40,146 nt of DNA from a virus, in IMG/VR virus record IMGVR_UViG_3300025120_000162, positions 1 through 40,146 of that record. One strand, given 5' to 3'. Under the pieces are notes generated by a model. That model saw nothing but the letters and a program-made list of their open reading frames with translations. It was not told where the DNA came from and did no database searches. The translations under genes and the position numbers were made by a program. Shown here piece by piece: positions 818 through 27,011 of the stretch. The first letter of the stretch is position 1. Every line of letters begins with the position of its first letter.

Positions 818-845
818 AAAAAGACGGTTAACGCCGTCTTTTTTT
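818..845 (+). terminator. Rho-independent terminator
   Basis: The stem AAAAAGACGG pairs with CCGTCTTTTT around a TTAACG loop and runs into an uninterrupted T tract. It closes the four-gene group before it and insulates the late promoter at 859. Confidence 0.93.
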
Positions 846-858
846 GTTTACTTTCTTG

Positions 859-866
859 TATAAATA
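859..866 (+). promoter_or_regulatory. T4-type late promoter (TATAAATA)
   Basis: This is an exact TATAAATA box between the terminator at 818-845 and the gene at 896. By the T4 rule, transcription would start about six bases after the box, near 872, leaving a leader of about 24 bases that includes GGAG at 886. It probably drives the whole 896-7762 run of leader-bearing genes. Confidence 0.85.
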
Positions 867-895: not shown

Positions 896-1696
896 ATGTT
901 ACGATTTCGAACATTTGATATGATAAGGGAAATGTCAATGGGTGCAGAATTAGAAATGGATATGGATTTTCTTCGGAGAGCTGAAAGAGTATCATCGTTT
1001 AATTTAATTGAAAAAGACTTTCAGTCAAATACATATCAAAAAGAAATTAGATACTTATATACAAAAAACTTTTTTCCTAATTTTGATCAAAAGTTTTTTG
1101 TTAAGGCTCCTACTAAAGATGGACTTAACAAAGCTATCACTGCTTTAAAACAAGAAAGCCGAAGAAGCTTTGAAGCATTACATAATTTTCGTCCGGGTGG
1201 AACGGGGCCGGCTGAAGTACTTCTTTTCTTTTTAATTGATGGTGCTCAACTAGGTGGTGCCGGTTCTGCAGGAATGGATTTATTTGTTAATCGAAAAGGT
1301 TATGAGATGAAATCTGTGCATGTATCTACTGATGGATTTATAAAAGATTTTAAGCTAGGTGGTACTGCTAACTTATCTGGAATAATAAATGAAAGTATAG
1401 CTTTAAAAAGAAAAGCTGATCCTAGAGCATCAAACAAACCGGGTGAAATTAATAAGACACAACAAGACAAGATTGCTAGAATGTTTCCAACACAATGGAA
1501 AAATATACAAAAGAAATTTCGAAAAGAAGCTGCAGATTATTTTGGAGACACAAATATAATTTTTACTCGTAGTAAATCAAATAAAGCTCAAATGGGGAAT
1601 GTTTTAGGAATAGGAACTGTTCCGGAACGGGCTATAGAAATTGATATGTTTACTAGTGGAACTATTAAACCTCTTATTAGAGTGAGCGATATGTAA
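896..1696 (+). CDS. PD-(D/E)XK nuclease-like protein with capsid-targeting-like N-terminus
   Basis: I chose ATG 896 over the in-frame GTG at 884 because GGAG at 886-889 lies six bases before 896. The product has 266 residues. The N-terminus MLRFRTFDMIREMSM resembles the leader shared by downstream genes, with a possible gp21 site after MIRE. The core carries a PD-(D/E)XK-like constellation: Glu107 in GPAEVLLFFL, Asp128 in GMDLF, and E137-x-K139 in YEMKSV. The glycine-rich GGAGSAG before Asp128 and the strand-turn-strand spacing agree with that fold. The C-terminal third is basic and may bind DNA. The first gene after a late promoter, it shares its stop base with the next start (TAATG). The nuclease assignment is by motif only; a non-catalytic virion protein is the main alternative. 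Confidence 0.6.
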   Translation: MLRFRTFDMIREMSMGAELEMDMDFLRRAERVSSFNLIEKDFQSNTYQKEIRYLYTKNFFPNFDQKFFVKAPTKDGLNKAITALKQESRRSFEALHNFRPGGTGPAEVLLFFLIDGAQLGGAGSAGMDLFVNRKGYEMKSVHVSTDGFIKDFKLGGTANLSGIINESIALKRKADPRASNKPGEINKTQQDKIARMFPTQWKNIQKKFRKEAADYFGDTNIIFTRSKSNKAQMGNVLGIGTVPERAIEIDMFTSGTIKPLIRVSDM

Positions 1697-2922
1697 TGAA
1701 GTTTGTTGAATATATAACTGAACAAAAGAATACTCATATGACTCATATAGAAGACAAGGTAGTCTATGGTGGAGTCAAAGGAACTAGAGACGCGATCATG
1801 GCATTGCGTTCTCTCAGAGATATGCTAGGAGGCGTACATGATGGAAATGTTAGTGTCAAATGGGATGGTGCTCCTGCTGTGTTTGCTGGGATCGACCCTA
1901 GTGATGGTAGATTCTTCGTGGCGAAAAAGGGGATCTTTAACAAATCTCCCAAAGTATACAAGAGTAATGCTGATATTGATGCTGATACTAGCGGCGATCT
2001 CAGTACAAAGCTTAAGCTCGCTTTACAGTATCTACCCGAGCTAGGAATCAAAGGAGTAGTCCAAGGTGATTTTCTGTATAGTAAAGCGGATCTTAAAACA
2101 CAAAAAATCAAAAATAAATCGTATGTTACGTTCCACCCCAATACAATCTTATATGCAGTACCGGCTGGCACGGACATGGCCGGGGAAATTAAGGCAGCAA
2201 AGATTGGAATCGTGTGGCATACGAGCTACACAGGAAACTCATTCGAAGGAATGAAGCAAAGCTTTGGTGTAGATATATCTAAATTTAAAAAATCAAAGAA
2301 TGTATGGTCACAAGATGCTATGCTTCGAGATTTGACTCGATATACTATGACACAAAAAGATACAGAAGAAGTAAATGAACACCTAAGGAATGCAGGATTT
2401 ATATTCAATAAGATTGCAGGCAACACGCTTAGGCAATTAGAAAAGAATAAAATCCTTACACAATTGATTGAGCAACATACAAATTCATATGTACGGTTGC
2501 AGGCAATGCCACCTGATCCAGCCAAAAGAGTAGATGCTCTTATAAAGTTTATTCAACAGAAGTATAAAAAAGAAATTGATAAAAGATCTACTGATCAAGG
2601 TAAAGATTCACAACGATTAAAACTTGGTGAGATACTAAATTTCTTTTCAAGTAAAAATAAAACAGCACTAAAAAATATATTTGAATTACAAAGATCTATA
2701 ATTCTAGCAAAACTAAAACTTATAAATATACTTAATCAGCTACAGTCTGTAAGGGCTTTCTTAAAAACTAAACGAGGGTTTAGAACTACGGGCCAAGAAG
2801 GATATGTAGCAATTGACAAACTTGGTAGTGATGCAGTGAAAATTGTGGACCGTATGGAGTTCTCATACGCAAACTTTTCACCCAATATATTAAAAGGATG
2901 GGATACACCAGGAAGGAACTAA
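1696..2922 (+). CDS. DNA/RNA ligase-like nucleotidyltransferase (DUF6267-like) with capsid-targeting-like leader
   Basis: The 408-residue product opens MKFVEYITEQKN, matching the local leader with a potential gp21 cut after YITE. Residues 53-64 (SVKWDGAPAVFA) contain K55-W-D-G58, the motif I lysine signature of covalent nucleotidyltransferases (DNA/RNA ligases, capping enzymes). The other expected blocks follow in order: GDF near 124-126 (motif III-like), YVTFHPNTI at 143-151 (IIIa-like), IGIVWHT at 170-176 (IV-like) and a lysine-rich KFKKSK at 196-201 (V-like). The C-terminal half is helical, Lys-rich and unassigned. I recall such phage proteins as the uncharacterised family DUF6267. Adenylation or ligation is inferred from the motifs. 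The first 550 bases use more GC-rich codons than the remainder. Confidence 0.7.
   Translation: MKFVEYITEQKNTHMTHIEDKVVYGGVKGTRDAIMALRSLRDMLGGVHDGNVSVKWDGAPAVFAGIDPSDGRFFVAKKGIFNKSPKVYKSNADIDADTSGDLSTKLKLALQYLPELGIKGVVQGDFLYSKADLKTQKIKNKSYVTFHPNTILYAVPAGTDMAGEIKAAKIGIVWHTSYTGNSFEGMKQSFGVDISKFKKSKNVWSQDAMLRDLTRYTMTQKDTEEVNEHLRNAGFIFNKIAGNTLRQLEKNKILTQLIEQHTNSYVRLQAMPPDPAKRVDALIKFIQQKYKKEIDKRSTDQGKDSQRLKLGEILNFFSSKNKTALKNIFELQRSIILAKLKLINILNQLQSVRAFLKTKRGFRTTGQEGYVAIDKLGSDAVKIVDRMEFSYANFSPNILKGWDTPGRN
2721..2728 (+). promoter_or_regulatory. Possible internal late promoter (TATAAATA)
   Basis: An exact TATAAATA box lies inside the ligase-like gene, about 200 bases before the next start at 2925. 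It could raise late expression of the following basic proteins. In AT-rich coding sequence a chance match is also possible, so support is weaker than for the intergenic boxes. Confidence 0.4.
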
Positions 2923-2924
2923 CG

Positions 2925-3479
2925 ATGGCAGAAAAACTGCTGCGCTTTAAAGATTTATACATGGCTGAATACCGGCCGGGTGAAGATGAGCTTACAAATT
3001 ATCGTGCATATAAACGTAAGAGACATATGTACGAAGCTACAAAAATGATATGTAAAGATTGTGGTGATGAACAAGGTAAGCCAACGACTGATTGTCCACA
3101 CGATTGTAGTGGTGGTCCACACTTTGCTCCACAAGATGACGATGGTAAATCTACTGTTGAAGCATTAACTCTTCAACAACGAATGGCTAAATCCCGACAG
3201 CTTAAGCGAATGAAAGCCAAGATCAAAATTGGCCGTGATCGCGCTAAACGAAAAATGGCTGACACTAAAAAATTAAGAAGTAGAGCACGTAAACAAGCTC
3301 GTACATTTATTCTTAAGAAACTTACTAAGGGTAAAGGTAAGAGTGAGTTATCATTTGCCCGTAGAGCAGAACTAGAAAAACGTATGGCTGCTCCTGCTGT
3401 AAAGAAAAGAATAGATATGTTTGCTAAACGTATGTTTAAAGATGTTCGTAAAAAAGAAGTTGAGAGAAAAAAGGGTTAA
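2925..3479 (+). CDS. Basic internal-protein-like protein with cysteine cluster
   Basis: The frame is open from an ATG at 2898, but GGAAGGA at 2911-2917 is correctly spaced for ATG 2925, giving 184 residues. The N-terminus MAEKLLRFKDLYMAEYRPGE carries the local leader slightly inset, with YMAE as possible gp21 site. Residues of about 35-55 hold a cysteine cluster (CKDCGDE, then CPHDCSGGPH) that could bind zinc. From about residue 70 onward the protein is extremely rich in Lys and Arg (LTLQQRMAKSRQLKRMKAKI; KRKMADTKKLRSRARKQAR) and predicted helical, like a DNA-condensing core protein. This basic region recurs in marine T4-like phages in my memory, without known function. It shares its last base with the next start. 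Confidence 0.7.
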   Translation: MAEKLLRFKDLYMAEYRPGEDELTNYRAYKRKRHMYEATKMICKDCGDEQGKPTTDCPHDCSGGPHFAPQDDDGKSTVEALTLQQRMAKSRQLKRMKAKIKIGRDRAKRKMADTKKLRSRARKQARTFILKKLTKGKGKSELSFARRAELEKRMAAPAVKKRIDMFAKRMFKDVRKKEVERKKG

Positions 3480-4702
3480 TGAGTTATTCGTTTAAAACTT
3501 TTCTAGCTGAAGAAGAAAAGCGGGTTTATTTTACCTTTGGTAGAATGAATCCACCTACTATTGGTCATGGAAAACTTCTAGAGAAGTTAGCAACATTAGC
3601 CGGTAATAATCAATATCGAGTTTATCTGTCTCAATCACAAGATAGTAAAGATAATCCATTACAATATAATGATAAGATAAAGATTGCACGGAAAATGTTT
3701 CCTCGTTATGCACGTCGAATCATGTTAAACAAAAAAATTAAAACAGTATTCGATGCTCTACAATCATTATATGATGAAGGTTTTGTTAATGTGGTTATGG
3801 TTGTAGGTTCTGATCGTGTTAACGAATTTGATATTCTTATCAAAAAGTATAATGGCAAAAAAGCTAAACATGGTCTTTATAACTTTCGAAGAATAGATGT
3901 TGTTTCTGCAGGTCAAAGAGATCCTGATGCTAAGGGAGCTGAAGGAGCATCTGCAACAAAACAAAGAGATGCTGCAAGAGCAAATGACTTTACAACATTT
4001 AGCCAAGGATTACCTAGAGTTGTAAATAACTTTGATGCTAAGAAGATCTTCAATAGTGTCCGTAAAGGCATGGGACTTAAAGAACAAAAAGAATTCAAGA
4101 ATCATATACAATTAGAATCAGTGAATGAAACAAGAGAATCATATGTAAGTGGTGAATTATACAAAGTTGGTGATCAAGTAATTATAAAAAATACCGAAGA
4201 GATAGCTGAAGTCAAAGTATGTGGCGCAAACTATGTTATTGTAGAAACGGCTAATGGTCAATACCGAAAATGGTTGGAGGCAATTGAACCTATGGAAGAA
4301 GGACTATGGGCAAACATCCGTGCACGTCGTGCAGCAGGTAAGCCAAAGAAAAAACCTGGGCAAAAAGGTTATCCTAAAACTCTTGATATTGAAAGTGCTG
4401 CTTATCATAAAGGTGTATCTAAATCTACATCTGATAAAAGGAAAGCACACTTTAGCAAGAATGCTAAAAAGGCTGATAACGATGCTTCTGCATATAAACC
4501 AGCACCTGGTGATAAGACAGCTAAAACAAAAACAAGTGTACATACTAAAAGATTCAAACAAATGTTTGGTGAATCTGAAATGCAAGCTATAGCAAAAAAG
4601 AAAATTGACCGCGAAAAAGAAATCGATAAAATTAAACACGATCGAATGTTAGACCGTGCTCGAACAAGAGATACCACAAAGAAAAATAAGGAAACAAAAT
4701 GA
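3479..4702 (+). CDS. NMN-adenylyltransferase-like nucleotidyltransferase fused to a basic tail, with capsid-targeting-like leader
   Basis: The 407-residue product starts MSYSFKTFLAEEEKR, a leader with a gp21-type site FLAE. Directly after it comes a HIGH-superfamily nucleotidyltransferase: FTFGRMNPPTIGH at residues 18-30, with T27-x-G-H30 as nucleotide-binding signature, VMVVGSDR near 106-113, and SATKQRDAA near 158-166 in the place of the ISSTxxR motif. This is the layout of nicotinamide-nucleotide adenylyltransferases, which join NMN and ATP to make NAD+. Residues of about 222-272 form a small beta-rich KOW/SH3-like segment (YKVGDQVIIKN; KVCGANYVIVETANG). The rest is Lys/Arg-rich (WANIRARRAAGKPKKKPGQK). 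Related cytidylyltransferase activity cannot be excluded. Start and stop are tightly coupled to both neighbours (TAATG, ATGA). Confidence 0.75.
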   Translation: MSYSFKTFLAEEEKRVYFTFGRMNPPTIGHGKLLEKLATLAGNNQYRVYLSQSQDSKDNPLQYNDKIKIARKMFPRYARRIMLNKKIKTVFDALQSLYDEGFVNVVMVVGSDRVNEFDILIKKYNGKKAKHGLYNFRRIDVVSAGQRDPDAKGAEGASATKQRDAARANDFTTFSQGLPRVVNNFDAKKIFNSVRKGMGLKEQKEFKNHIQLESVNETRESYVSGELYKVGDQVIIKNTEEIAEVKVCGANYVIVETANGQYRKWLEAIEPMEEGLWANIRARRAAGKPKKKPGQKGYPKTLDIESAAYHKGVSKSTSDKRKAHFSKNAKKADNDASAYKPAPGDKTAKTKTSVHTKRFKQMFGESEMQAIAKKKIDREKEIDKIKHDRMLDRARTRDTTKKNKETK

Positions 4703-4950
4703 TTAGATTTAGTCAATATCTTTCGGAAGAAGAAAAGAAAGGTTTAGCAGCTAAGGCTGAAAAATCAGGTATGCCGATTGGTATACTACGTAAAGTCTAT
4801 AATCGTGGTATGGCAGCATGGAAAACTGGTCATAGGCCAGGGACAACACCACAACAATGGGCTATGGCTCGAGTCAATTCGTTTACAACTAAATCCTCAG
4901 GCACTTGGGGAAAGGCAGATAAAGATCTGGCCGCAAAGGTAAGAGGATAA
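4699..4950 (+). CDS. DUF5824-like small basic protein with capsid-targeting-like leader
   Basis: The product has 83 residues: leader MIRFSQYLSEEEKK with a gp21-type site YLSE, then a compact domain beginning KGLAAKAEKSGMPIGIL and continuing VYNRGMAAWKTGHRPG and QQWAMARVNSF. These blocks match a small domain found in many phage proteins that I recall as DUF5824; its function is not established. A terminal acidic/basic segment WGKADKDLAAKVRG completes it. The gene overlaps the upstream stop by four bases and is followed one base later by the next start. The clean join of leader and domain suggests a cargo domain that has acquired a targeting signal. Confidence 0.75.
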   Translation: MIRFSQYLSEEEKKGLAAKAEKSGMPIGILRKVYNRGMAAWKTGHRPGTTPQQWAMARVNSFTTKSSGTWGKADKDLAAKVRG

Positions 4951-4951
4951 A

Positions 4952-5785
4952 ATGAAAAAATTCAAACAAATACGAGAAGAAGCAAATCATCTATTTGAAA
5001 TGGAAATGCTTACTCATAAGAAAAAGATAGCTGCAACAGGTGCAAAACTAAAAGCCGTACAACAGAAGCATACTGATGCGACCAAAAAACATTTTGATCT
5101 TGCAAATAAAGCGATAGAAAGTTTGGAAAAAACTCATAAAAACCTTACTCATTCTGAACGTTCAGATCATAACTCTGTTAGAGCGCATGTAATTCGTGCT
5201 AGATATCACAAAGATGCGGCAAAATCCGATTATCACGATCATCGCCACGCACCGACCTATGGCAATGACAACTGGCAGAAAAAACATATATCAAGCAAGG
5301 ACGTCAAACATTCAGAAAGGCTACATAAAGAATTAGCAAGTGCTCATGCTGCTCATGATGCTGCTAAGAAAAATAGCCCTGCAGGGAAACTGAAATCTCT
5401 TGGTAATAAGATAAAAAGTAAGTTAACAAGCGAACAGAATGAGCTAGATGAATTAAGTAACAAAACGCTAGATTCATATTCTGATAAAGCTGATAGACAA
5501 TATGCATTGTCTAGAAAAAGACATAATGATGATGATTATACAGCTAAAAAGCAAGCTATGCATAAAAATCGTTTAAGAAAACGTCATAAAGGTCTTGGTT
5601 CATTTTACAAAAGGGATGATGCTCGTCAAAATCCAGATGGTAGCCACGCAGCAAAATATATGCATAAGTATAGTGCGGGTAAAAGAATTAGCACTGGTAA
5701 GGGAGGTATGTTTGGTGGAGATACACTAAGAAATAAACCTTCTTCAGCATTACCTAAAACTTACAGAGATCCAAATAGGAAGTAA
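4952..5785 (+). CDS. Lys/His-rich coiled-coil internal-protein-like protein
   Basis: The 277-residue product starts MKKFKQIREEANHLFEMEM, with QIRE as a possible gp21 site. Residues of about 25-150 are a long helical, Lys/His/Ala-rich region (HTDATKKHFDLANKAIESLE) with coiled-coil character. Residues of about 164-230 carry a module LDELSNKTLDSYSDKADRQ followed by a basic region, which recurs twice in the next gene. The C-terminus is basic and glycine-containing, ending PKTYRDPNRK. It lies one base after the upstream stop. The composition fits a prohead core or internal protein packaged with DNA; no enzyme motif is visible. Confidence 0.7.
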   Translation: MKKFKQIREEANHLFEMEMLTHKKKIAATGAKLKAVQQKHTDATKKHFDLANKAIESLEKTHKNLTHSERSDHNSVRAHVIRARYHKDAAKSDYHDHRHAPTYGNDNWQKKHISSKDVKHSERLHKELASAHAAHDAAKKNSPAGKLKSLGNKIKSKLTSEQNELDELSNKTLDSYSDKADRQYALSRKRHNDDDYTAKKQAMHKNRLRKRHKGLGSFYKRDDARQNPDGSHAAKYMHKYSAGKRISTGKGGMFGGDTLRNKPSSALPKTYRDPNRK

Positions 5786-5787
5786 AA

Positions 5788-6789
5788 ATGAAAACATTCG
5801 ATCAAATTAGAGAAGGTTATGCATCTATGGCTCAACAACGAGCTGTATGGGCTACTCGTAAAGATGGTGGTAAAGGTCATCCGGATAATAAAAGAAAAAG
5901 AAAAAAAGAAGATATGGATGAAGTCAAGTCTGCTGACAAAAAACCTGAAAAGTATATTGCAGCTGATGGTAAAACAAAAATCCGTATGGTTCCAGTTGTT
6001 AAAGAACAAGATGAAGTCAATGAATTAGACACCTCTACTTTAGTTTCTTATAGAAAAAAAGCTAATAAGCAAAGATATAGCAATAACATTTCAAAGAGAA
6101 CTCAGAGAACTGCCGGTGTTGATGCTGCTGATAAAAAGTTGAGAAAACGCAATATCGATAAATTTGGTAAACACTCTCCAAAGGGTGTTGATAAAATGGG
6201 TAATCCTAAAGAAGATACTTCCGATGCAGTAAAAGCATTCCTTGCTAAAGGCGGTAAGATTAAAAAGCTTCCACCAGCAAAAGCTCAAGGTTACCATGGT
6301 AAAGATGATCCGGGTAAAGATGTGCACGGTGTAATGGATAAACCTGACACAAAGCGAATGGGTACTCGTAAAAAAGTCAAGTCCATGGAAGCAATGATAC
6401 CAACTGATAAAGGACCATTTGGTATTCAACCAAAGGCAGCTGTCAAAGTAATTAAAAAAGGAAAAGAAGTCAAGGAAATCTCTAGAGATACTAAAAAGAA
6501 TTACATCAAAAAAGCTGCAGATGATATGAGTAAACAGGCAGACAAAATGGCTCGAGCTCAACGCGGCGATGGCAAAATGGACAAGGCAGTTAATAAGTTT
6601 GTTAATCGTCGTAAAGGCATTGCACGTGCTGTAGAAGCTAAAGAGACAGATCCGCCATTCGATGATGCTAAAAAAATATCTACAACTCCAGCTAAAGATC
6701 AGTTCGGCAATATCATTAAGAACCGAGCAAAGCATCTTGCAAGGCAAGCCGCTAAGAAAGCTGGTGGCGATATGGGAGACAAGAAATGA
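5788..6789 (+). CDS. Highly basic internal-protein-like protein with two copies of the SYxxKA module
   Basis: The 333-residue product starts MKTFDQIREGYASMAQQ, with QIRE as possible gp21 site. It is extremely Lys-rich (GHPDNKRKRKKEDMDEVK) and has no membrane segment. Two related helical modules are visible: VNELDTSTLVSYRKKANKQ near residues 76-95, and VKEISRDTKKNYIKKAADDM near 227-246, the latter followed by KFVNRRKGIARAVEAKE. Both match the module in the upstream gene. A further block KPEKYIAADGKTKIRMVPV near residues 51-69 recalls small segments in other marine phage proteins. Repeated basic helices imply nucleic-acid contact. The gene overlaps the next start by four bases. A DNA-associated core or injected protein is inferred, not shown. 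Confidence 0.7.
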   Translation: MKTFDQIREGYASMAQQRAVWATRKDGGKGHPDNKRKRKKEDMDEVKSADKKPEKYIAADGKTKIRMVPVVKEQDEVNELDTSTLVSYRKKANKQRYSNNISKRTQRTAGVDAADKKLRKRNIDKFGKHSPKGVDKMGNPKEDTSDAVKAFLAKGGKIKKLPPAKAQGYHGKDDPGKDVHGVMDKPDTKRMGTRKKVKSMEAMIPTDKGPFGIQPKAAVKVIKKGKEVKEISRDTKKNYIKKAADDMSKQADKMARAQRGDGKMDKAVNKFVNRRKGIARAVEAKETDPPFDDAKKISTTPAKDQFGNIIKNRAKHLARQAAKKAGGDMGDKK

Positions 6790-7475
6790 AATCGTTTAAA
6801 TCTTTTTACGAAGATCTAACATTTAAGGTAGAGGTTGAAGGGCTGCCGGCTATGTGGATGTCTGGTAATTCGCCAGGTCAAGTAAAGAACCATCTTCGTA
6901 AATTGGTTAAGCAACCATCAATGATTAAGTCTGTAAAACGGCAGACTAAATTTGATGTAAAGAAAATGTACCGCGATAAAGCTCAGGGCAAAGAAGTTGA
7001 TGAAATGACTCAACAGAGTAAGACTCATCCTAATCTTAAGATTGCTATAGGTAAATCTGCGCAATCAGCAAAAGATACAAAAGCTCGGACAGATAAAAGA
7101 AAAGCAAATAAGCAGGGTACATCCTTAGCTGCTGGTACTGCATGTGAAGCTACATCTGGTGAAGTTGATTATGGATCTGATAAGTCAGTTAAGATGATGA
7201 AGAAAGTTACACCTAACGAAGCATGTTGGGATAGTCATAAGCAAGTTGGTATGAAGAAGAAAGGTAACCGAATGGTTCCTAATTGTGTACCAAAGAATGA
7301 AGATGTAAAAGAAAAACTTACAATTGGTAAGATTCGTAAAGCAGCATATAAAACTGCAAAAGTTCTTGGTGATGTTAATGCTGTTAAAAAAGGTAAAGTA
7401 GCTAGACGAGTAAAAAATAGAGTTGTCGGTAAGATGCTCGGTAAAGCAGTTAGCAAATTAGGATTGTTCAGGTAA
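6786..7475 (+). CDS. Basic internal-protein-like protein with CW...NCVP motif
   Basis: The 229-residue product starts MKSFKSFYEDLTFKVEVEG. The leader resembles its neighbours but reads FYED instead of [I/L]-x-E, so cleavage is less certain. Residues of about 10-60 form a small mixed alpha/beta region (VEGLPAMWMSGNSPGQVKNH). Residues of about 144-170 hold the block ACWDSHKQVGMKKKGNRMV followed by PNCVPKNE, a short cysteine-containing element I have seen repeatedly in marine phage proteins of unknown role. The last 60 residues are strongly basic (KKGKVARRVKNRVVGKMLGK). It shares its last base with the next ATG (TAATG). Function unknown; context suggests packaged cargo. Confidence 0.65.
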   Translation: MKSFKSFYEDLTFKVEVEGLPAMWMSGNSPGQVKNHLRKLVKQPSMIKSVKRQTKFDVKKMYRDKAQGKEVDEMTQQSKTHPNLKIAIGKSAQSAKDTKARTDKRKANKQGTSLAAGTACEATSGEVDYGSDKSVKMMKKVTPNEACWDSHKQVGMKKKGNRMVPNCVPKNEDVKEKLTIGKIRKAAYKTAKVLGDVNAVKKGKVARRVKNRVVGKMLGKAVSKLGLFR

Positions 7476-7762
7476 TGGAAAGATTCAAAACGTTTATAGA
7501 AGCTCGTGGTGAAGATTCAAAGGGTCATAAAAGATCTACTGCATCAGGCGCTGGTCTTACACAAAAAGGTGTAGATGCCTATAATAGAAAAACTGGTGGC
7601 AATCTAAAAACTGCGGTGACTGGTAAAGTTAAGCGTGGTAGTAAAGCTGCAGGTAGAAGGAAATCATTTTGTGCTCGCATGGGTGGCATGCCGGGACCAA
7701 TGAAAGATGAGAAAGGTAGACCTACACGTAAGGCAATGTCTTTACGTCGATGGAAATGTTAG
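7475..7762 (+). CDS. DUF6321-like small basic protein with leader
   Basis: The 95-residue product starts MERFKTFIEARGEDSKGHK; the leader FKTFIEA is close to the consensus but lacks Glu in the last position. The remainder is one compact basic domain: GAGLTQKGVDAYNRKTGGNL, then RRKSFCARMGGMPGPMKDE, GRPTRKAMSLRRWKC. I recall this arrangement as the uncharacterised phage family DUF6321. Its two cysteines (FCAR and final WKC) could pair or bind metal. This is the last gene of the leader-bearing run. The next gene begins five bases later with a membrane-type N-terminus and no leader. Confidence 0.75.
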   Translation: MERFKTFIEARGEDSKGHKRSTASGAGLTQKGVDAYNRKTGGNLKTAVTGKVKRGSKAAGRRKSFCARMGGMPGPMKDEKGRPTRKAMSLRRWKC

Positions 7763-7766
7763 ATAG

Positions 7767-8171
7767 ATGGCGACTAAACTGAATGAAGGAACTGAAGTAG
7801 CGCTTCCACTTCGCAATATTGTTAGTATGATTGCGTTTACATCATTAGCTACTTGGGCATATTTTGGAGTTGTTGAAAGATTAAATCAAATTGAAACAAG
7901 TCAGACTATGATGAAAACTGATTTAGAACAAAATACTGAGTTTAGAATTAAATGGCCACGCGGTGAAATGGGAAGTTTGCCGGCAGACAACGAACAGTTT
8001 TTAATGATCGAGCATTTAGCAAGTGAACTTGAAAAATTAACAGATGAGATAGAAGAAGGTAGAGCGCCTTATGACCAACAACAAAAACTAACACTTGAAT
8101 TTTATGAAAAACGAATTAATAACCTTGAAGACAAGATAGAGCAACTAAGAGCTAACGGACATAGCAAATGA
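7767..8171 (+). CDS. Membrane-anchored coiled-coil protein, unknown function
   Basis: The 134-residue product has one hydrophobic segment near residues 18-35 (IVSMIAFTSLATWAYFGV). A long helical, charged region follows, with coiled-coil heptads around residues 36-56 and 85-130 (FYEKRINNLEDKIEQLRAN). This indicates an N-terminal membrane anchor with the helix projecting to one side. Topology resembles small membrane effectors or i-spanin-like proteins, but a clear spanin pair exists downstream at 35641, so that role is less likely. The last four bases overlap the next start (ATGA). Function unknown. Confidence 0.7.
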   Translation: MATKLNEGTEVALPLRNIVSMIAFTSLATWAYFGVVERLNQIETSQTMMKTDLEQNTEFRIKWPRGEMGSLPADNEQFLMIEHLASELEKLTDEIEEGRAPYDQQQKLTLEFYEKRINNLEDKIEQLRANGHSK

Positions 8172-8383
8172 CCACGGTAGAGTTTGTTTTATTACTGTTT
8201 ATGAATGGCACAGAGCTTAAGGAGTATACATTGCGAGATGGCATGTCAGAATGTTTAAAAGCTAAACGTATGGCATCTCGGCAATTAACTAGAGCAAATA
8301 AGTCTACTCGATATGCGTGTCAAAAAATGGAAGTTATACTTGACGACAGTGGTAAAATACTAGAAATTGTAGCAAAGCAGTAG
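8168..8383 (+). CDS. Hypothetical 71-residue protein
   Basis: The product begins MTTVEFVLLLFMNGTELKEY, a short hydrophobic strand followed by a small alpha/beta domain. It has two cysteines (MSECLKAKRMA and YACQKMEV) spaced to permit a disulfide. The N-terminus is too short and irregular to be a convincing signal peptide. The gene overlaps the upstream coiled-coil membrane gene by four bases and is followed by an 87-base gap with hairpins. No family recognised; the residue pattern looks like a compact folded domain rather than a spurious frame. Confidence 0.65.
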   Translation: MTTVEFVLLLFMNGTELKEYTLRDGMSECLKAKRMASRQLTRANKSTRYACQKMEVILDDSGKILEIVAKQ

Positions 8384-8395
8384 GTGTTAAAAACC

Positions 8396-8441
8396 TGACA
8401 GAAAGGGATGTCAAATTATTATAGGTGTCATTTTTTTGACA
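8396..8441 (+). other. Four-arm TGACA/TGTCA inverted repeats (possible alternative hairpins)
   Basis: Arms TGACA 8396, TGTCA 8409, TGTCA 8426 and TGACA 8437 can pair as two neighbouring hairpins, the second with a six-T loop, or in mutually exclusive longer-range pairs. The 87-base gap between genes also holds an AATAAATA box just after. A weak terminator or an RNA processing site is possible. Confidence 0.4.
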
Positions 8442-8444
8442 ACC

Positions 8445-8452
8445 AATAAATA
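8445..8452 (+). promoter_or_regulatory. Variant late promoter box (AATAAATA)
   Basis: AATAAATA differs from the T4 late box at one base and lies 18 bases before the start at 8471. The same variant precedes gp20 and gp23, which supports its use in this phage. Confidence 0.5.
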
Positions 8453-8470
8453 TATATTTGGCAAAAGCAG

Positions 8471-8758
8471 ATGAAAGAAGATCATATGGAGTCCCATTCA
8501 AGGTTAGATAGGATCGAGTTAAAACTCGACAAGCTTACGGAAGCGATGGTTTTAATGGCTCGGACTGACGAAAAAGTAACTGCATTGAAAGATGATCATG
8601 ATAATATGTATGAACGTATTAATCGATTATCTATGAAATTAGATGATATTGAAAAGAAGGTTGACGATAATCACCGCACGGTGTGCCTTATAAATAAACT
8701 AGTATATGCTGCTCTAATCGCAGCGGTTGGAGCGTATGTGGCTCAATTTTTAACTTAG
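8471..8758 (+). CDS. Coiled-coil protein with C-terminal membrane anchor
   Basis: The 95-residue product has a long helical region with heptads (RLDRIELKLDKLTEAMVL; INRLSMKLDDIEKKVDD) and a single C-terminal membrane segment near residues 75-93 (KLVYAALIAAVGAYVAQF). This is the architecture of XhlA-like and other tail-anchored phage membrane proteins associated with lysis or superinfection, but the match is structural only. ATG 8486 is an alternative start with AGAAG five to six bases upstream; ATG 8471 has a weak site. An exact late promoter box lies inside its 3' end at 8689. Confidence 0.7.
   Translation: MKEDHMESHSRLDRIELKLDKLTEAMVLMARTDEKVTALKDDHDNMYERINRLSMKLDDIEKKVDDNHRTVCLINKLVYAALIAAVGAYVAQFLT
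8689..8696 (+). promoter_or_regulatory. T4-type late promoter (TATAAATA)
   Basis: This exact box lies in the 3' end of the coiled-coil gene, about 70 bases before the GTG start at 8769. The expected start near 8702 gives a leader of about 67 bases for the next gene. Confidence 0.65.
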
Positions 8759-8768
8759 GAGAAGACAA

Positions 8769-9737: not shown

Positions 9738-9746
9738 GAGAGAAGA

Positions 9747-10052
9747 ATGGCTATCAAAGGACCTAAAGGTGCGCACCCAACTACACGTGGTTGGGAAAGC
9801 GCTAAAGGCGAATTATTAAAATCGCAAAGGATTAGTGAAGATCAAATTGCAGAATGGAATGGTGAAATGAATCCAAAGCCTCAAGTGTTACGTGAAGCAC
9901 CGGTAACAGAAGAAGAAGTAATTGAAGAACATATTGGAGATCCCTTAGAACATACTCATGAAGATGGTACTACTCATTCTCATGAAGGTGGAGATGTGGA
10001 TCATACACATGACAAGCCTAAGAAGAGTATGATGGGCAAGTTGTTTTCATAA
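9747..10052 (+). CDS. Small protein with His-rich, potentially metal-binding tail
   Basis: The 101-residue product begins MAIKGPKGAHPTTRGWESAK, a basic block recognisable in other marine phages, followed by GELLKSQRISEDQIAEWN. The acidic middle (TEEEVIEEHIGD) leads into a histidine cluster, EHTHEDGTTHSHEGGDVDHT then HD, with seven His in about 22 residues alternating with Asp, Glu and Thr. The tail ends KKSMMGKLFS. Such clusters can coordinate Ni, Zn or Cu, and structured versions occur in tail tips, but here the region looks unstructured. GGAGAGAAG upstream is a clear ribosome-binding site. Function unknown. Confidence 0.7.
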   Translation: MAIKGPKGAHPTTRGWESAKGELLKSQRISEDQIAEWNGEMNPKPQVLREAPVTEEEVIEEHIGDPLEHTHEDGTTHSHEGGDVDHTHDKPKKSMMGKLFS

Positions 10053-10054
10053 TA

Positions 10055-10077
10055 TATAAGAGGTAACTACTCTTATA
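10055..10077 (+). other. Perfect 8-bp hairpin in the intergenic leader
   Basis: TATAAGAG pairs perfectly with CTCTTATA around the 7-base loop GTAACTA. It lies between the stop at 10052 and the start at 10086 and has no T tract, so it is not a standard terminator. It may be an RNA processing or stability element. Confidence 0.55.
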
Positions 10078-10085
10078 GGATCATT

Positions 10086-12711: not shown

Positions 12712-12759
12712 AGTATACATTTATGAAGCATAATAAAGATAAAACAAAGAGGATAAAAA

Positions 12760-14580: not shown

Positions 14581-14593
14581 AGAATAAAAAACA

Positions 14594-14601
14594 TATAAAT
14601 A
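14594..14601 (+). promoter_or_regulatory. T4-type late promoter (TATAAATA)
   Basis: This exact box follows the adhesin stop and lies 31 bases before the gp13 start. Expected transcription start is near 14607, with GGAG at 14621 as ribosome-binding site. It would drive the neck/terminase group. Confidence 0.85.
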
Positions 14602-14632
14602 GTCAAAAGATTTTTATGTCGGAGACTATTTT

Positions 14633-21757: not shown

Positions 21758-23323
21758 ATGGCAGAACAATCAGGACAAGACGGCGTTAAACTATTTGGTT
21801 TTGAAATAAAGCGCGCAAAAAAGAAAGATGAGATGAAGTTACCATCTGTCGTTCCTCCTAGGGATGATGAAGGTGGTAGTTATGCAACTGCATCTGGTTC
21901 GCACTATGGTCAGTACCTGAATCTAGGTGATGACGATTCAAAAGACAACTATCAATTGATAATGAAATATCGCGGTAATGCAATGCATCCTGAAGTTGAT
22001 GCTGCTATTGAAGATATTGTAAACGAGTCAATTACTGGTAGCCAGTTAGAACAAACTTTAGAATTGAATATGGAGGAAGTAAAAGCTCCTGATTCTATTA
22101 AAAAGAAAATTACAGAAGAATTTGATAACATATATGGAATGCTTAACTTTAAAGAGTTAGGTCATGATATTTTCCGTAGGTGGTATGTGGATGGAAGAAT
22201 CTATCACCATCTTGTTTTAAATGAAGCAAATCCTAAAGAAGGTATTCAAGAAATACGACCTATTGATGCTGCTAAAATGCGCAAGGTCAAAAAGATTAAG
22301 AAGAAAAAAGATCCGGTAACCGGTGCAGATATTATTGAGAATACCGAAGAGTTTTATATCTTCCAAGAAAAGCCAGGGTCATCTACATCCGGTGTAAAAA
22401 TGACAAATGATGCAGTAAGTTATGTTACATCTGGTTTGCTTAGTGAAGATCGTAAAAAAATTATTTCATTTTTGCATAAAGCTTTAAAGCCTATTAATCA
22501 ATTGCGAATGATGGAAGACTCATTAGTTATCTATCGCCTCGCACGTGCACCCGAGCGAAGAATCTTTTATGTAGATGTTGGTAGCTTACCACGTGGTAAA
22601 GCTGAACAATATATGAAAGATATTATGACTAAGTATCGTAATAAGCTTGTGTATGATGCAGCAACTGGTCAAATTAAAGATGACCGTAAACATATGTCAA
22701 TGCTAGAAGACTTCTGGTTGCCTCGCCGTGAAGGTGGTAAAGGCACAGAGATATCTACACTTCCGGGTGGAGAAAACCTTGGACAAATTGATGATGTAAT
22801 TTTCTTTCAAAAGAAAGTTTACCGTTCATTAAATGTACCACTTAATCGATTAGAACAAGAAAATCAATTTAATCTTGGTAGATCTACTGAGGTAAATAGA
22901 GATGAATTAAAATTCCAAAAGTTTATCGATAGATTACGTATGAGGTTTGCTCATCTATTCTATGGTATTCTAAAAACTCAACTTATTCTAAAAGGTATTA
23001 TTACTGAAGAAGATTGGGAAGATTGGAAAAATGATATTACCGTTGACTATGTAAGGGATAACCACTTTACAGAATTACGGGATATGGAAGTATTGAGAGA
23101 AAGAGTACAAACACTCGATCAAATCAATAACTATGCTGGAGAGTATTTCTCTAAAGAGTGGATTCAAAAGAATGTACTTATGCTTTCTGATGAAGACGTA
23201 GAAAAGATGAATAAAGAAATCAATGGTGAACAAGAAGAAAAGCCTGAGGAAGAGCCACAGGATCAAGAAGCACCATCACAAAAATTTGAATTGAAACCTG
23301 TACAAGGAGATGACAGTGAGTGA
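21758..23323 (+). CDS. 20: Portal protein gp20
   Basis: The 521-residue product (T4 gp20: 524) forms the dodecameric portal at the DNA-entry vertex, the start point for prohead assembly and the dock for the terminase and neck. Diagnostic blocks are GNAMHPEVDAAIEDIVNESI near residue 72, LGHDIFRRWYVDGRIYHHLV, RMMEDSLVIYRLARAPERRI then FYVDVGSLPRGKAEQYM near residue 248, and LNVPLNRLEQENQFNLGRST near 365. The C-terminal 50 residues are acidic and disordered. The stop overlaps the gp67 start region. Length and all central motifs are ordinary. Confidence 0.97.
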   Translation: MAEQSGQDGVKLFGFEIKRAKKKDEMKLPSVVPPRDDEGGSYATASGSHYGQYLNLGDDDSKDNYQLIMKYRGNAMHPEVDAAIEDIVNESITGSQLEQTLELNMEEVKAPDSIKKKITEEFDNIYGMLNFKELGHDIFRRWYVDGRIYHHLVLNEANPKEGIQEIRPIDAAKMRKVKKIKKKKDPVTGADIIENTEEFYIFQEKPGSSTSGVKMTNDAVSYVTSGLLSEDRKKIISFLHKALKPINQLRMMEDSLVIYRLARAPERRIFYVDVGSLPRGKAEQYMKDIMTKYRNKLVYDAATGQIKDDRKHMSMLEDFWLPRREGGKGTEISTLPGGENLGQIDDVIFFQKKVYRSLNVPLNRLEQENQFNLGRSTEVNRDELKFQKFIDRLRMRFAHLFYGILKTQLILKGIITEEDWEDWKNDITVDYVRDNHFTELRDMEVLRERVQTLDQINNYAGEYFSKEWIQKNVLMLSDEDVEKMNKEINGEQEEKPEEEPQDQEAPSQKFELKPVQGDDSE

Positions 23324-23669
23324 AGTAGACGCGCAAGAAGCTGAGAATGCAGTTTCAGAACCTAATGACTATATTAAAGATTTGATTGCAAATGCTCTAG
23401 AGCAAGATTATAACGGTGCCAATAAGATCTTTGGTGATGTCATGACAGTTAGGCAAAACGATTTATTAGATCAAGAAAAAATTAAATTGGCTGATCAACT
23501 TTTCAACGGAGCAGAAGAAGATGACGATGTTGATGAAGATGACGAGTTGGGGGATGAGGATGACGATCAGCTCGAACTTGAGCTTGACACAGAAGATGGC
23601 GATGAAGAGGAAGATGATGAAGAAGAATCTGATGACGAAGCCACCGAAGATGATCAAGAAGAAGAATAA
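23316..23669 (+). CDS. 67: Prohead core protein gp67
   Basis: I chose GTG 23316 (117 residues) over ATG 23310 because AAGGAG at 23304-23309 touches the ATG but lies six bases before the GTG. The N-terminal helix region YIKDLIANALEQDYNGANKI then FGDVMTVRQNDLLDQEKIKL resembles T4 gp67 (80 residues), and the second half is an almost pure Asp/Glu run, as in gp67. In T4 this small core protein is needed for correct prohead shape and is degraded by gp21. The position between 20 and 21 is the T4 one. It overlaps the end of gp20. The acidic tail (about 50 residues) is longer than in T4. Confidence 0.87.
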   Translation: MSEVDAQEAENAVSEPNDYIKDLIANALEQDYNGANKIFGDVMTVRQNDLLDQEKIKLADQLFNGAEEDDDVDEDDELGDEDDDQLELELDTEDGDEEEDDEEESDDEATEDDQEEE

Positions 23670-23721: not shown

Positions 23722-23937
23722 ATGTTAACATTTACTCAACTAAGAGAAAAGATGGAGAAGGGCATGCCGCCTGGTGAACATGTTTTCGATAAAAAAGTTG
23801 ATGGTAAAACTTTAATGATCCACAAAGAAAAAGGCAAATTTTGTGTATACATTGATATGGAAAAACTAGATACGTATCCTACTTTAGGTATGGCAAAAAA
23901 AGCCGGCCAAGAATTTATAAAGGCAGCAAAGAAATGA
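23722..23937 (+). CDS. Prohead core protein at the gp68 position, with capsid-targeting-like leader
   Basis: The 71-residue product starts MLTFTQLREKMEKGMPPGEH, matching the leader of the genes at 896-7762 with a gp21-type site QLRE. The remainder is a small basic beta-alpha domain: HVFDKKVDGKTLMIHKEKGK, FCVYIDMEKLDTYPTL, AKKAGQEFIKAAKK. In T4 the slot between 67 and 21 holds gp68, a prohead core protein of 141 residues; this product is half as long, and similarity cannot be claimed from sequence alone. The overlap with gp21 (ATGA) and the leader support a core component processed by gp21. Confidence 0.7.
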   Translation: MLTFTQLREKMEKGMPPGEHVFDKKVDGKTLMIHKEKGKFCVYIDMEKLDTYPTLGMAKKAGQEFIKAAKK

Positions 23938-24584
23938 AACTGATTGCAGAATATACAGATCAAAGTTTAGAGATTCTCACCGAAGAAAAAGAAGGTGGTG
24001 GGAAAAGTTATTCTATTGAAGGCGTGTTCATGCAAGCAGAACAAAAGAATCGTAACGGTCGAATATATCCAAAGCCTATCATGGAAAAAGCACTCGGTAA
24101 ATATAATACAGAGCAAGTTTCAAAAGGTAGAGCAGTCGGTGAGTTAAACCACCCTGAAGGACCGACCGTTAATTTAGACAAAGTTTCTCACAAGATCGAA
24201 TCCCTTGATTGGAAAGGTAATGATGTTGTGGGCAAAGCGACTATTTTGGAAACTCCTATGGGACAAATTGTAAAAGGTTTGCTCGATGGTGGTGTCAGAT
24301 TAGGCGTTTCAACTCGTGGTATGGGAAGCTTGCAGAACAATGGTAACGCAATGGTCGTCAAAGACGACTTTATTCTTAATGCGGTAGACATCGTTCAAGA
24401 TCCATCTGCACCTAGCGCTTTTGTTAATGGAGTTATGGAAGGTGTTGAATGGGTTTGGAATAACGGAATCATTGAACCACAAGCAATTGAAATAATGGAG
24501 ACTGAAATTAAGAAAGCTCCTCGTGCGGATCTCTATGAGACACAAGTTCGTGAGTTTAAGAATTTCCTCTCGTTGCTCAAATAG
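23934..24584 (+). CDS. 21: Prohead core scaffold protein and protease gp21
   Basis: The 216-residue product (T4 gp21: 212) is the serine protease of the herpesvirus-assemblin fold that digests the scaffold and trims gp23 and internal proteins after [L/I]-x-E. Catalytic-type residues are His73 in GELNHPEGP and Ser126 in GVSTRGMGSL. A conserved Asp-rich block KDDFILNAVDIVQDPSAP occupies residues 143-160. The N-terminus reads EYTDQSLEILTEEKEG and may be self-cleaved. It is coupled to the preceding gene by ATGA and followed by gp22 after 18 bases. This enzyme is the expected processor of the leader-bearing proteins at 896-7762. Confidence 0.95.
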   Translation: MKLIAEYTDQSLEILTEEKEGGGKSYSIEGVFMQAEQKNRNGRIYPKPIMEKALGKYNTEQVSKGRAVGELNHPEGPTVNLDKVSHKIESLDWKGNDVVGKATILETPMGQIVKGLLDGGVRLGVSTRGMGSLQNNGNAMVVKDDFILNAVDIVQDPSAPSAFVNGVMEGVEWVWNNGIIEPQAIEIMETEIKKAPRADLYETQVREFKNFLSLLK

Positions 24585-24602: not shown

Positions 24603-25655
24603 ATGACTGAAGATCAAAATCAAGATCAAGAGATTGACCTCCATGATGACAACGATGTCGTGGAAGAAGCTCACGATCCTAAAAATGCTGAGGCTCAGTC
24701 TGTAGCATCTGTTGATAAAGCAGGTGAAGCTACAGGTAAAGCGCCAACGCGTAAGGGTGATCAAACTAAACAAGATCCAATGATCAAAACTAAAGCAGGA
24801 CTAATTACTGCTATGGTTGGAAAAATGCAAAAAATGGGCAAGACTGATTTACAGGCAATGTACCATAAAGACGACTTTGATGTAGAGAATTTTGAAGGTG
24901 AAGCAATTGCTGAATCTCCAGAGCTCGATTATCAAGTTGATTTTTCTGAGGATCTAAACGCACTCGTCGAATCAGAGGCAACTCTGTCAGATGAATTCAA
25001 GGCAAAAGCAGAGACAATCTTTGAAGCAGCTATTAAGTCTAAGCTGGGTGAAGAGATCGATCGCCTTGAAGAGAAGTACAACGAAGAGTTGGCAGAAGAA
25101 GTAGAATCTACTAAAGCTGACTTAGTTGAAAAAGTCGACAATTATCTTAACTACGTAGTTGAGAGCTGGATGGAAGAGAATAAGCTTGCAGTCCAGTCAG
25201 GCCTAAGAACAGAAATTGCTGAGAACTTCATGTCAAGTCTGAAAGATTTGTTTGAAGAGTCTTACATCGAAGTTCCGGAAGCTAAGGTTGACTTAGTTGA
25301 CGAAATGGCAGATCAAGTATCAGAACTCGAAGAGTCACTAAATGATACAACTGCTAAAAACATTGAGATGATGGGAGTACTCGAAGAGCTAATGCGGGAA
25401 AAGATTATCCGTGAAGCATCTGAAGGTCTTGCAGAAACTCAAGTTGAAAAACTAAAGTCACTGGTAAGTGATATCGATTTTGATTCAGAAGAAACTTTCG
25501 CAGAGAAAGTAGAGACTGTTAAAGAATCATACTTTACCAAAAAGGTTACTGAAACAGCTTCTATCGAAGAAGATGTGTCGGATGACGATGGTGTTCAAGT
25601 AGCATCGGGTTCTATGGCTCAGTATCTAACAGCAATCCAAAAAACAAATAAATAA
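24603..25655 (+). CDS. 22: Major prohead scaffold protein gp22
   Basis: The 350-residue product (T4 gp22: 269) is acidic and almost wholly helical, with extended coiled coil from about residue 120 to 300 (EEIDRLEEKYNEELAEEVES; MADQVSELEESLNDTTAKNI). The block KTKAGLITAMVGKMQKMGKT near residues 62-81 is typical of marine T4-like gp22. gp22 forms the core around which gp23 assembles and is then destroyed by gp21, making room for DNA. Several [I/L]-x-E sites are present. The N-terminal 60 residues are acidic and disordered. Location between gp21 and gp23 is canonical. AAAGGAG is the ribosome-binding site. Confidence 0.93.
   Translation: MTEDQNQDQEIDLHDDNDVVEEAHDPKNAEAQSVASVDKAGEATGKAPTRKGDQTKQDPMIKTKAGLITAMVGKMQKMGKTDLQAMYHKDDFDVENFEGEAIAESPELDYQVDFSEDLNALVESEATLSDEFKAKAETIFEAAIKSKLGEEIDRLEEKYNEELAEEVESTKADLVEKVDNYLNYVVESWMEENKLAVQSGLRTEIAENFMSSLKDLFEESYIEVPEAKVDLVDEMADQVSELEESLNDTTAKNIEMMGVLEELMREKIIREASEGLAETQVEKLKSLVSDIDFDSEETFAEKVETVKESYFTKKVTETASIEEDVSDDDGVQVASGSMAQYLTAIQKTNK
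25647..25654 (+). promoter_or_regulatory. Variant late promoter box (AATAAATA)
   Basis: It overlaps the last codons of gp22 and lies 19 bases before the gp23 start. Expected start near 25660 leaves a short leader with GGGAG. In T4 gene 23 has its own strong late promoter, which supports use of this one-base variant. Confidence 0.55.
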
Positions 25656-25673: not shown

Positions 25674-27011
25674 ATGCAAACCGTATCATACGATCGACTG
25701 ATCGAGAAATGGGCACCGGTACTGAACGAAGAGTCTGCCGGCACTATTAAAGATCATCACCGGAAAGCAGTTACTGCTGCTATTCTAGAAAACCAAGAGC
25801 GTGCATTCGCAGAAGAAGCGGCCCAAGGCCAATTCATGACAGAAGCAGCTCCAACAAACAACACAGGCAATGCTGCTAACTGGAATCCAGTTCTTATTGC
25901 TCTTGTCCGCCGTGCTATGCCAAACCTTATGGCATATGACATGTGTGGAGTCCAGCCAATGTCCGGACCAACAGGCTTGATCTTCGCAATGAAGTCAACC
26001 TTTGAAAAGACAAAGGCAGGTGTATCAGACGGTGCAGAAGCACTCTTCAATGAAGCAGCAATTGGCTTCTCCGGAGATTCTGCAACAACTGCAAACGGTT
26101 CATCCTCTGGTTTGGCTGATTCTTCATCCTCTGGTGTAGGATCAATTGATGATGAGCGTACTGATCCTCTAGCAGCTAATGATCCATACTCAACAGCCGA
26201 AGCTGAAGCTTTGGGTGACGGTGTTGGTGAGAGCTTTGCTGAAATGGGTTTCACCATCGAAAAAGCAACTGTGACTGCCAAGTCACGGGCACTGAAAGCA
26301 GAATATAGCTTGGAACTTGCTCAGGATCTTAAAGCCATTCATGGCCTGGATGCTGAAACAGAACTGGCTAACATTCTGTCAACTGAGATCATGGCTGAAA
26401 TTAACCGTGAAGTTATTCGCACAGTTAACTCACAAGCTAAGACAGGTGCACTAACTGCTAACACAGCAATTAACGGTATCTTCAACCTCTCAACAGATGC
26501 AGATGGTCGTTGGTCAGTGGAGAAATTCAAAGGCCTGATCGTACAAATCGAGCGTGAAGCTAACACAATTGCTAAAGAAACACGTCGGGGTAAAGGTAAC
26601 TTTATGATCTGTTCATCAGATGTTGCTTCTGCTCTCTCAGCTTCTGGCATGCTTGACTATACTCCAGCAATGTCAACCAACTTGCAAGTAGATGATACTG
26701 GCAATACTTTTGCCGGTGTTATGAATGGTCGCACACGGGTCTACATTGATCCATATGCAACTCAGGACTATGTCAATGTTGGTTATAAGGGAACTAACCC
26801 TTATGATGCAGGTCTCTTCTATTGCCCATACGTACCACTAACAATGGTCCGTGCAGTAGGTGAGCAAAGCTTCCAGCCAAAAATTGGATTTAAGACACGT
26901 TACGGTATGGTATCAAACCCATTCGTAGGTGCTGCTCCATCTAATGGCCTAGCTACTGCTAAGACTAACCAGTACTACCGGATCTTCCGTGTAGACAATA
27001 TTCTTGCATAA
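25674..27011 (+). CDS. 23: Major capsid protein gp23
   Basis: The 445-residue precursor forms the hexamers of the head shell. The N-terminal region ends QGQFMTE|AAPTNN, and Glu57 is the likely gp21 cleavage point, comparable to Glu65 of T4 gp23. The HK97-type fold follows: WNPVLIALVRRAMPNLMAYD near residue 70, CGVQPMSGPTGLIFAMKSTF near 89, and C-terminal YKGTNPYDAGLFYCPYVPLT before RTRYG-like IGFKTRYGMVSNPFVGAAP. The segment of about residues 135-178 is Ser/Gly/Asp-rich and may be a surface insertion; it contains a 13-base direct repeat. T4 gp23 is 521 residues, so this is the shorter marine form. No separate vertex protein gp24 is seen next to it. Confidence 0.97.
   Translation: MQTVSYDRLIEKWAPVLNEESAGTIKDHHRKAVTAAILENQERAFAEEAAQGQFMTEAAPTNNTGNAANWNPVLIALVRRAMPNLMAYDMCGVQPMSGPTGLIFAMKSTFEKTKAGVSDGAEALFNEAAIGFSGDSATTANGSSSGLADSSSSGVGSIDDERTDPLAANDPYSTAEAEALGDGVGESFAEMGFTIEKATVTAKSRALKAEYSLELAQDLKAIHGLDAETELANILSTEIMAEINREVIRTVNSQAKTGALTANTAINGIFNLSTDADGRWSVEKFKGLIVQIEREANTIAKETRRGKGNFMICSSDVASALSASGMLDYTPAMSTNLQVDDTGNTFAGVMNGRTRVYIDPYATQDYVNVGYKGTNPYDAGLFYCPYVPLTMVRAVGEQSFQPKIGFKTRYGMVSNPFVGAAPSNGLATAKTNQYYRIFRVDNILA
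26099..26135 (+). repeat. In-frame 13-base direct repeat inside gp23
   Basis: TTCATCCTCTGGT occurs at 26099-26111 and 26123-26135, a 24-base period that keeps frame. It codes for SSSGLADSSSSGVG in the presumed surface insertion of gp23. Confidence 0.8.

Follow-up and report, generated by a model that had tools for sequence, protein, structure and literature searches.

The internal proteins IPI, IPII and IPIII of phage T4 share a short N-terminal leader, in which aromatic residues are spaced i,i+3 and a glutamate marks the cut site, followed by basic and mutually unrelated mature parts. They belong to the gp21/gp22 head system, in which gp21 cleaves after L/I-x-E. T4 also has a head-packaged and injected enzyme with a gp21-cut propeptide, namely the ADP-ribosyltransferase Alt. 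In IPIII, ten residues are enough for targeting, with positions 4 and 7 serving targeting and positions 8 and 10 serving processing, and with an Asp at position 10 processing is blocked while targeting persists (PMC9026906). Among the inner-body and ejection proteins of phiKZ and SPN3US, too, many are packaged in the head and cut by a prohead protease at a Glu site, although these belong to another phage group and have other propeptides (the phiKZ motif is S/A-x-E; PMC9026906).

The present analysis concerns a marine bacteriophage, IMG/VR virus record IMGVR_UViG_3300025120_000162, of which the complete 40,146 bases were analysed (the window), and in it a block of nine genes at 896-7762. A preliminary description had read this block as a run of genes with T4-type capsid-targeting leaders that encodes a packaged and injected "arsenal". 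The run itself is borne out, all nine open reading frames (ORFs) being present on the + strand, with ends that overlap or nearly abut and almost without gaps. In our view, the block is very probably a late operon for prohead-core cargo, i.e., a T4-type capsid-targeting system enlarged to a whole operon, and its proteins are likely packed in the virus particle, judging by their leaders. The capsid-targeting principle is known; the scale and the cargo are new. In contrast to IPI-III, at least eight cargo genes would lie in one late operon and their bodies are enzyme-like; sequence homology between the bodies of IPI-III and the window cargo was not seen. An ADP-ribosyltransferase like Alt was not found in the window, where the cargo is nuclease-, ligase- and NMNAT-like instead, and the leader of Alt, MELITELFDE, resembles those found here less closely.

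The leader and its proposed cut site

Eight of the nine products begin with a leader that has an aromatic pair and, behind it, a hydrophobic-x-Glu site, similar to T4 IPII/IPIII (MKTYQEFIAE). With the proposed cut given as a slash, these are, all on the + strand, MLRFRTFDMIRE/M in gene 1 (896..1696, start ATG 896), MKFVEYITE/Q in gene 2 (1696..2922), MSYSFKTFLAE/E in gene 4 (3479..4702), MIRFSQYLSE/E in gene 5 (4699..4950), MKKFKQIRE/E in gene 6 (4952..5785), MKTFDQIRE/G in gene 7 (5788..6789), MKSFKSFYE/D in gene 8 (6786..7475) and MERFKTFIE/A in gene 9 (7475..7762). Aromatic or hydrophobic residues stand at positions 4 and 7 in these eight genes (displaced by one residue in genes 2 and 4), and the pair is spaced i,i+3 in most leaders. 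Gene 3 (2925..3479, + strand), which encodes a basic protein, fails in this respect. Its N-terminus had been given as LLRFKDLYMAE, in which the codons CTG CTG offer no start codon; translation probably starts at ATG 2925, which follows AAGGAA and gives MAEKLLRFKDLYMAEYRP and a doubtful leader, MAEKLLRFKDLYMAE. The other eight N-termini stand as they were written, and with the start of gene 3 corrected the shared leader is confirmed.

An L/I-x-E site closes the leader in six of the nine window genes (IRE, ITE, LAE, LSE, IRE and IRE). Seven had been counted when M was admitted at P3, and the seventh was the M of gene 3; genes 8 and 9 have F. Orthologs were drawn mainly from 149 IMG/VR loci, and their starts were picked by codon, ribosome-binding site and alignment, the motif not being used. 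Among 213 matched ortholog leaders, 203 (95%) have I or L at P3, under a pattern that also permitted M, F, Y and V. In the orthologs of gene 1, the spacer that separates the aromatic pair from the Glu differs in length by a few residues, whereas the pair and the xE/M site are constant, which fits two separate functional sites; F4 and E12 are kept in at least 90% of them. The F3 and E9 of gene 2 are invariant in its orthologs, and gene 8 orthologs have FYE/A or FYE/D at the leader end.

The claim that the leader is portable on unrelated bodies is also supported. The Pfam domains of the block proteins start behind it, and in the AlphaFold models of two proteins its predicted local distance difference test score (pLDDT) is below 50 in both, i.e., it is disordered. 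It is missing from three of three sampled DUF6321 homologs outside the T4-like group (HTVC031P, S-RIP1 and C75C1), a small sample in which the lack of gp21 is taken from taxonomy.

Loose regular expressions for the leader discriminated poorly (24-47 hits in the T4 background), and a position profile with family leave-one-out was therefore adopted. The profile was trained on metagenomic (IMG/VR) relatives only, and since only sequences with an aromatic residue close to the start entered training, each family was also scored with itself left out. Across 49 window ORFs, the top eight are eight of the nine block genes (scores 8.4-20.1; next best 3.7). With the own family left out, seven of the nine keep scores of 6.4 or more (gene 2, 11.0; gene 4, 14.3; gene 5, 17.3; gene 6, 16.4; gene 7, 6.4; gene 8, 15.1; gene 9, 14.6), gene 1 falling to 1.8 and gene 3 to -4.1. 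A score of at least 6 is reached by 11 of 257 proteins in the T4 background, against which seven of nine has a binomial P of ~9e-9. A profile search across T4-like phages, proposed earlier as a check, ranked IPIII, IPII and IPI, all three absent from training, as 3, 4 and 6 of the 257 T4 genes. In phage C48C1 (188 genes), six of the top eight lie in the homologous cluster, one slightly upstream (57,287), and one is the gp68-position gene. The tag noted earlier on the gp68-position protein of the window (23722..23937, + strand; MLTFTQLRE/K) is real as well, with a profile score of 9.9 and the C48C1 counterpart MRTFKELREAKDK; its identity as gp68 is by position only.

Counted over distinct ortholog N-termini, the leader is present in 87% for gene 1, 87% for gene 2, 96% for gene 4, 98% for gene 5, three of three for gene 6, 42% for gene 7, 67% for gene 8 and 71% for gene 9. 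For gene 3 the figure is 1% by the pattern, with the profile passed by half; its orthologs mostly read ...FKDhhxxDYRP, without the Glu cut site. In the neighbouring families at 7767, 8471, 9747, 10448, 11032 and 12760 the leader occurs in 0% of orthologs, and the profile pass rate over ten downstream families (7767-15388) is 0% in eight, 2% in one and 12% in one. The family at 10086-10448 reached 41% by the loose pattern, yet 2% by the profile, and was set aside as leader-like only superficially. It is a small, conserved family that starts [IF]xELTEDNLFLYAAKxYYNP (T4-GC198 type).

Probable late expression, head genes and relatives in virions

Directly 5′ of the operon, a terminator-like hairpin (AAAAGACGGTTAACGCCGTCTTTTTTT, then a T run; ~823..850, + strand) was read in the sequence. 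It is followed on the same strand by TATAAATA (859..866, ~30 nucleotides 5′ of gene 1), a late promoter element reported for T4-like phages (PMC2984593). The window holds ten copies of TATAAATA on the + strand and none on the - strand, with 4.5 expected for both strands; the others precede the gp13-, gp18- and gp68-position genes and further late genes, several of them directly 5′ of head or tail genes. The genes of 896-7762 thus form a compact operon, preceded by a terminator-like hairpin and by a late promoter sequence of T4 type.

The window has a T4-type head and tail block in which gp20, gp67, gp21, gp22, gp23 and the large terminase were recognised with Pfam, and further T4 homologs were assigned by gene order. 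On the + strand lie the genes of a gp67-like acidic core protein (23310..23669; net charge -47; PF17634, E=4e-5, slightly under the curated cut-off), of the gp21 prohead protease (S77; 23934..24584; PF03420, E=7e-40), which is the expected leader-cutting enzyme, and of the gp22 scaffold (24603..25655; net -53; PF25623, E=2e-67), the expected receptor of the leader. These are followed by the major capsid protein gp23 (25674..27011; PF07068, E=5e-145), with the likely cut site GQFMTE/A as compared to SFLTE/A in T4. The very acidic gp22/gp67 core contrasts with the nine cargo proteins, which are all basic (net charge about +10 to +42).

A megablast search with the window found no close isolate. 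By gene 2, the nearest isolate is phage C48C1 (Kyanoviridae; 61% identity), after which come Stenotrophomonas phage DLP6 and Methylophilales phage Melnitz and, farther off, Pelagibacter phage HTVC008M and cyanophages. Homologs of gene 4, NMNAT-like or cytidylyltransferases with the same leader and the same synteny (before primase/nrdA), were found by mass spectrometry in purified virions of four cyanophages. In S-SM1, T4-GC190 was detected (PMC3037559), which is SSM1_190 and begins MKKFSAFLNE/A. The virions of S-SZBM1 contained the cytidylyltransferase 140 (MRFRQFIIE/A) and its neighbour 139 (PMC9146016), and those of S-SCSM1 the NMNAT 91 (PMC9602691), of which the N-terminus MKSFLQFLKE/A is the best leader among 57 proteins checked. 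In S-CREM2, gp154, 155, 156 and 160 were found (PMC10665884); gp154 (MKNFSSFLTE/A) has the best leader among 69 proteins checked, and the top two of these 69 scores both belong to virion proteins, which is suggestive only. The available parts of the papers propose no targeting leader. Its occurrence on virion-detected homologs makes true packaging more likely. The capsid-targeting reading is further supported by the fit of the leader to the mapped IPIII positions, by the I/L preference at P3 and by the presence of gp21, gp22, gp67 and gp23 in the window. The leader would also supply a mechanism for an open observation, i.e., the recurrence of an NMNAT-like enzyme in cyanophage virion proteomes, whose authors could not separate true cargo from carry-over.

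The leader could instead be an N-terminal trait of late genes apart from packaging, serving for example translation, membrane binding or degradation (as a degron), and inherited from a common ancestor of the gene starts. Adjacent genes could have swapped their 5′ ends, and packaging in this phage is something that we infer; on the other hand, other late structural genes of the same phages lack the leader, which is most similar to that of the T4 internal proteins, and gp21 agrees both with the I/L-x-E bias and with the way in which the two leader halves persist through length changes. With gene 4 homologs among virion proteins as well, this explanation is highly improbable.

Several points weigh against packaging of the block, or of all of it. 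The phage is known from a 40 kb metagenomic fragment and the virion data come from relatives, among which the gene 4 family alone combines detection in virions with a clear leader. In the published cyanophage proteomes, as far as consulted, N-termini are not mapped; two of the papers warn of possible carry-over in caesium chloride preparations. S-SZBM1_141 (DUF6267) is without a leader and outside the published virion list. S-SCSM1_90, _92 and _93 lack an N-terminal leader and are virion proteins all the same; the leader is therefore not the sole route into the head. Within the block, genes 8 and 9 depart from I/L at P3, and gene 3 is a poor case for a leader. Packaging might be partial, comprising genes 1, 2, 4, 5 and perhaps 8 and 9, with the products of genes 3, 6 and 7 cytoplasmic or bound to the others. 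The absence of a leader from most gene 3 orthologs and the pass rate of 42% in gene 7 orthologs speak for this, whereas the leave-one-out scores of genes 6 and 7 in the window (16.4 and 6.4) speak against it; we regard it as a serious possibility, somewhat short of an even chance.

Besides 91, the S-SCSM1 genes 89, 90, 92 and 93 are annotated as virion proteins, and in a blastp comparison of these neighbours with the window genes only gene 91 was homologous, the rest sharing position only. The 69-amino-acid virion protein SSCSM1_93 (L172 31627-31836) has a C-terminal leader-like stretch, KKRTFKEFLEYIE. In T4 Alt, too, the C-terminus is a site of cleavage.

Predicted cargo and its possible use

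The product of gene 1 is a predicted PD-(D/E)XK nuclease-like protein, in which E107, D115, D128, E137 and K139 are invariant in 20 orthologs. The fold matches of its AlphaFold model (pLDDT 86), for the most part to restriction endonucleases with some Holliday junction resolvases, are weak (Foldseek E 0.019, best Z 4.7).

Gene 2 encodes a DUF6267 protein (PF19782, E=9e-100, residues 12-396) that is predicted, not proven, to be an RNA-ligase-like nucleotidyltransferase. This reading follows from VIA-align matches to the RNA editing ligase 1xdn (Z 7.0), T4 Rnl2 (Z 6.6) and several RNA, tRNA and DNA ligases (Z 5-6), together with conserved motifs. K55-W-D-G, E368-G-x-V and K382, the candidate counterparts of motifs I (KxDG), IV (EGxV) and V (Lys) in the ATP-dependent RNA/DNA ligase superfamily, are retained from the window to the cyanophages, with K55, D57, G58, E368, G369, V371 and K382 invariant in 12 diverse homologs. 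The model is of moderate quality (pLDDT 69), and unrelated helical proteins reach equally high VIA-align scores; Foldseek gave no significant match to the model, and a sequence search of the PDB gave no match. The alignment start offsets would put K55 on the catalytic lysines that the entries name (e.g., 8uch K92A, 5cou K170M, 5tt6 K99M), assuming that the first residues are ungapped.

The NMNAT-like character earlier assigned to gene 4 is upheld by an NMNAT/cytidylyltransferase-like domain (PF01467, E=1e-4, above cut-off; PHROG 3041/395) with the motifs FGRMNPPTIGH and SATKQR, of the (H/T)xGH and ISSTxxR-like types, which recur in over 80% of orthologs (FGRxNPPTxGH in 110 of 131, S-A-S/T-x-x-R in 109 of 131). 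A sequence search of the PDB gave only chance lysozyme matches. Gene 4 proteins repeatedly have a second, internal FKxMFxE-like stretch (HTKRFKQMFGESE) close to their C-terminal module (window ~4570-4620); it is seen also in loci L005 (gp130), L004 (14631-16583) and L002 (gene 4 of C48C1). The deposited start of the C48C1 cytidyltransferase lies too far 3′ and cuts off the leader MIKNFSQYLLEEE (L002 13619-13684; C48C1 record 63448-63513).

Genes 3 and 5-9 encode basic proteins in which no catalytic domain was seen. They include the DUF5824 protein of gene 5 (PF19141, residues 18-76), the products of genes 6 (isoelectric point (pI) 10.1) and 7 (pI 10.1, net +42), that of gene 8 with a CWD...PNCV module (PHROG 9737/727) and the DUF6321 protein of gene 9 (PF19846, residues 26-93; pI 11.2). 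The block proteins could be structural proteins of the prohead core or DNA-condensing proteins, whose leader binds the scaffold and whose role lies in head assembly, head size or DNA packing and not in delivery as effectors. All nine are strongly basic, T4 IPIII has a role in head assembly (PMC9026906), and in the T7-like phage HTVC031P a leaderless DUF6321 gene (L165 2992-3237) is placed between those of the scaffold and the capsid, which suggests a head role there too. Catalytic-type motifs, needless for a purely structural role, are however retained in genes 1, 2 and 4 of nearly all orthologs. For the block as a whole, we consider a structural role possible but doubtful; for the small basic proteins, a part in DNA condensation or head size is a live alternative.

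For cargo that is delivered, the block proteins would probably enter together with the phage DNA. By analogy with T4, on which the first steps are modelled, we infer their targeting, cleavage, injection and function as follows. The block would be transcribed late, and the first 9-12 residues of each protein would act as a T4-type capsid-targeting sequence, of which the aromatic/hydrophobic pair (i,i+3) docks on the acidic gp22/gp67 scaffold core during prohead assembly. Cleavage by gp21 after the Glu in (I/L)-x-E would then set the mature, basic part of the protein free within the head, the DNA would be packed around the cargo held there, and at infection part or all of it would exit with the DNA. 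It might act in the first minutes, ahead of phage gene expression, on incoming or host DNA, damaged RNA and the nicotinamide adenine dinucleotide (NAD) or nucleotide pool. Guessing from the kind of enzyme, the ligase-like protein may repair RNA that host defence has cut, the NMNAT-like enzyme may restore NAD, and the nuclease-like protein may attack host DNA.

What the system is for (early repair, counter-defence or takeover) is a matter of speculation. The packaged-cargo part of the "arsenal" is supported, but the word exceeds the data; repair and nucleotide enzymes, along with DNA-binding basic proteins, would seem to describe the cargo better. Put most broadly, and tentatively, at slightly less than even likelihood, marine T4-like phages would use a dedicated late operon and one portable leader to preload every particle with a kit of several enzymes (a nuclease together with RNA-ligase-like, NMNAT-like and DNA-binding proteins), which starts DNA, RNA and NAD repair or counter-defence as the DNA enters. 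With a recognisable leader, virion cargo may become predictable from sequence in one of the most abundant virus groups of the ocean, and DUF6267 (the predicted RNA ligase) and the PD-(D/E)XK-like nuclease can be named as probable delivered enzymes.

Fused relatives and other observations

Genes 2 and 4, 4 and 5, and 8 and 9 each match successive parts of one PHROG profile, i.e., they are fused in relatives, which suggests that the partners of each pair may act together. Internal copies of the tag at the junctions of fused multi-domain versions were considered; they show no overall enrichment over shuffled sequence, and single cases look convincing. An 849-amino-acid basic fused protein of ACG-2014f (L167 3643-6192) has three FS[NS]WRD segments, one of them directly before its DUF6321 domain, the counterpart of which in the window is a separate leader-bearing gene.

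Elsewhere in the window, 37500-39719 gave weak matches to B12-dependent ribonucleotide reductase. A second N-terminal motif, MS-x-x-RDIARILGKTEA, is common to the large proteins at 11032, 12760, 29978 and 34236, and weakly to that at 31747, all of which are tail- or fiber-like by position.

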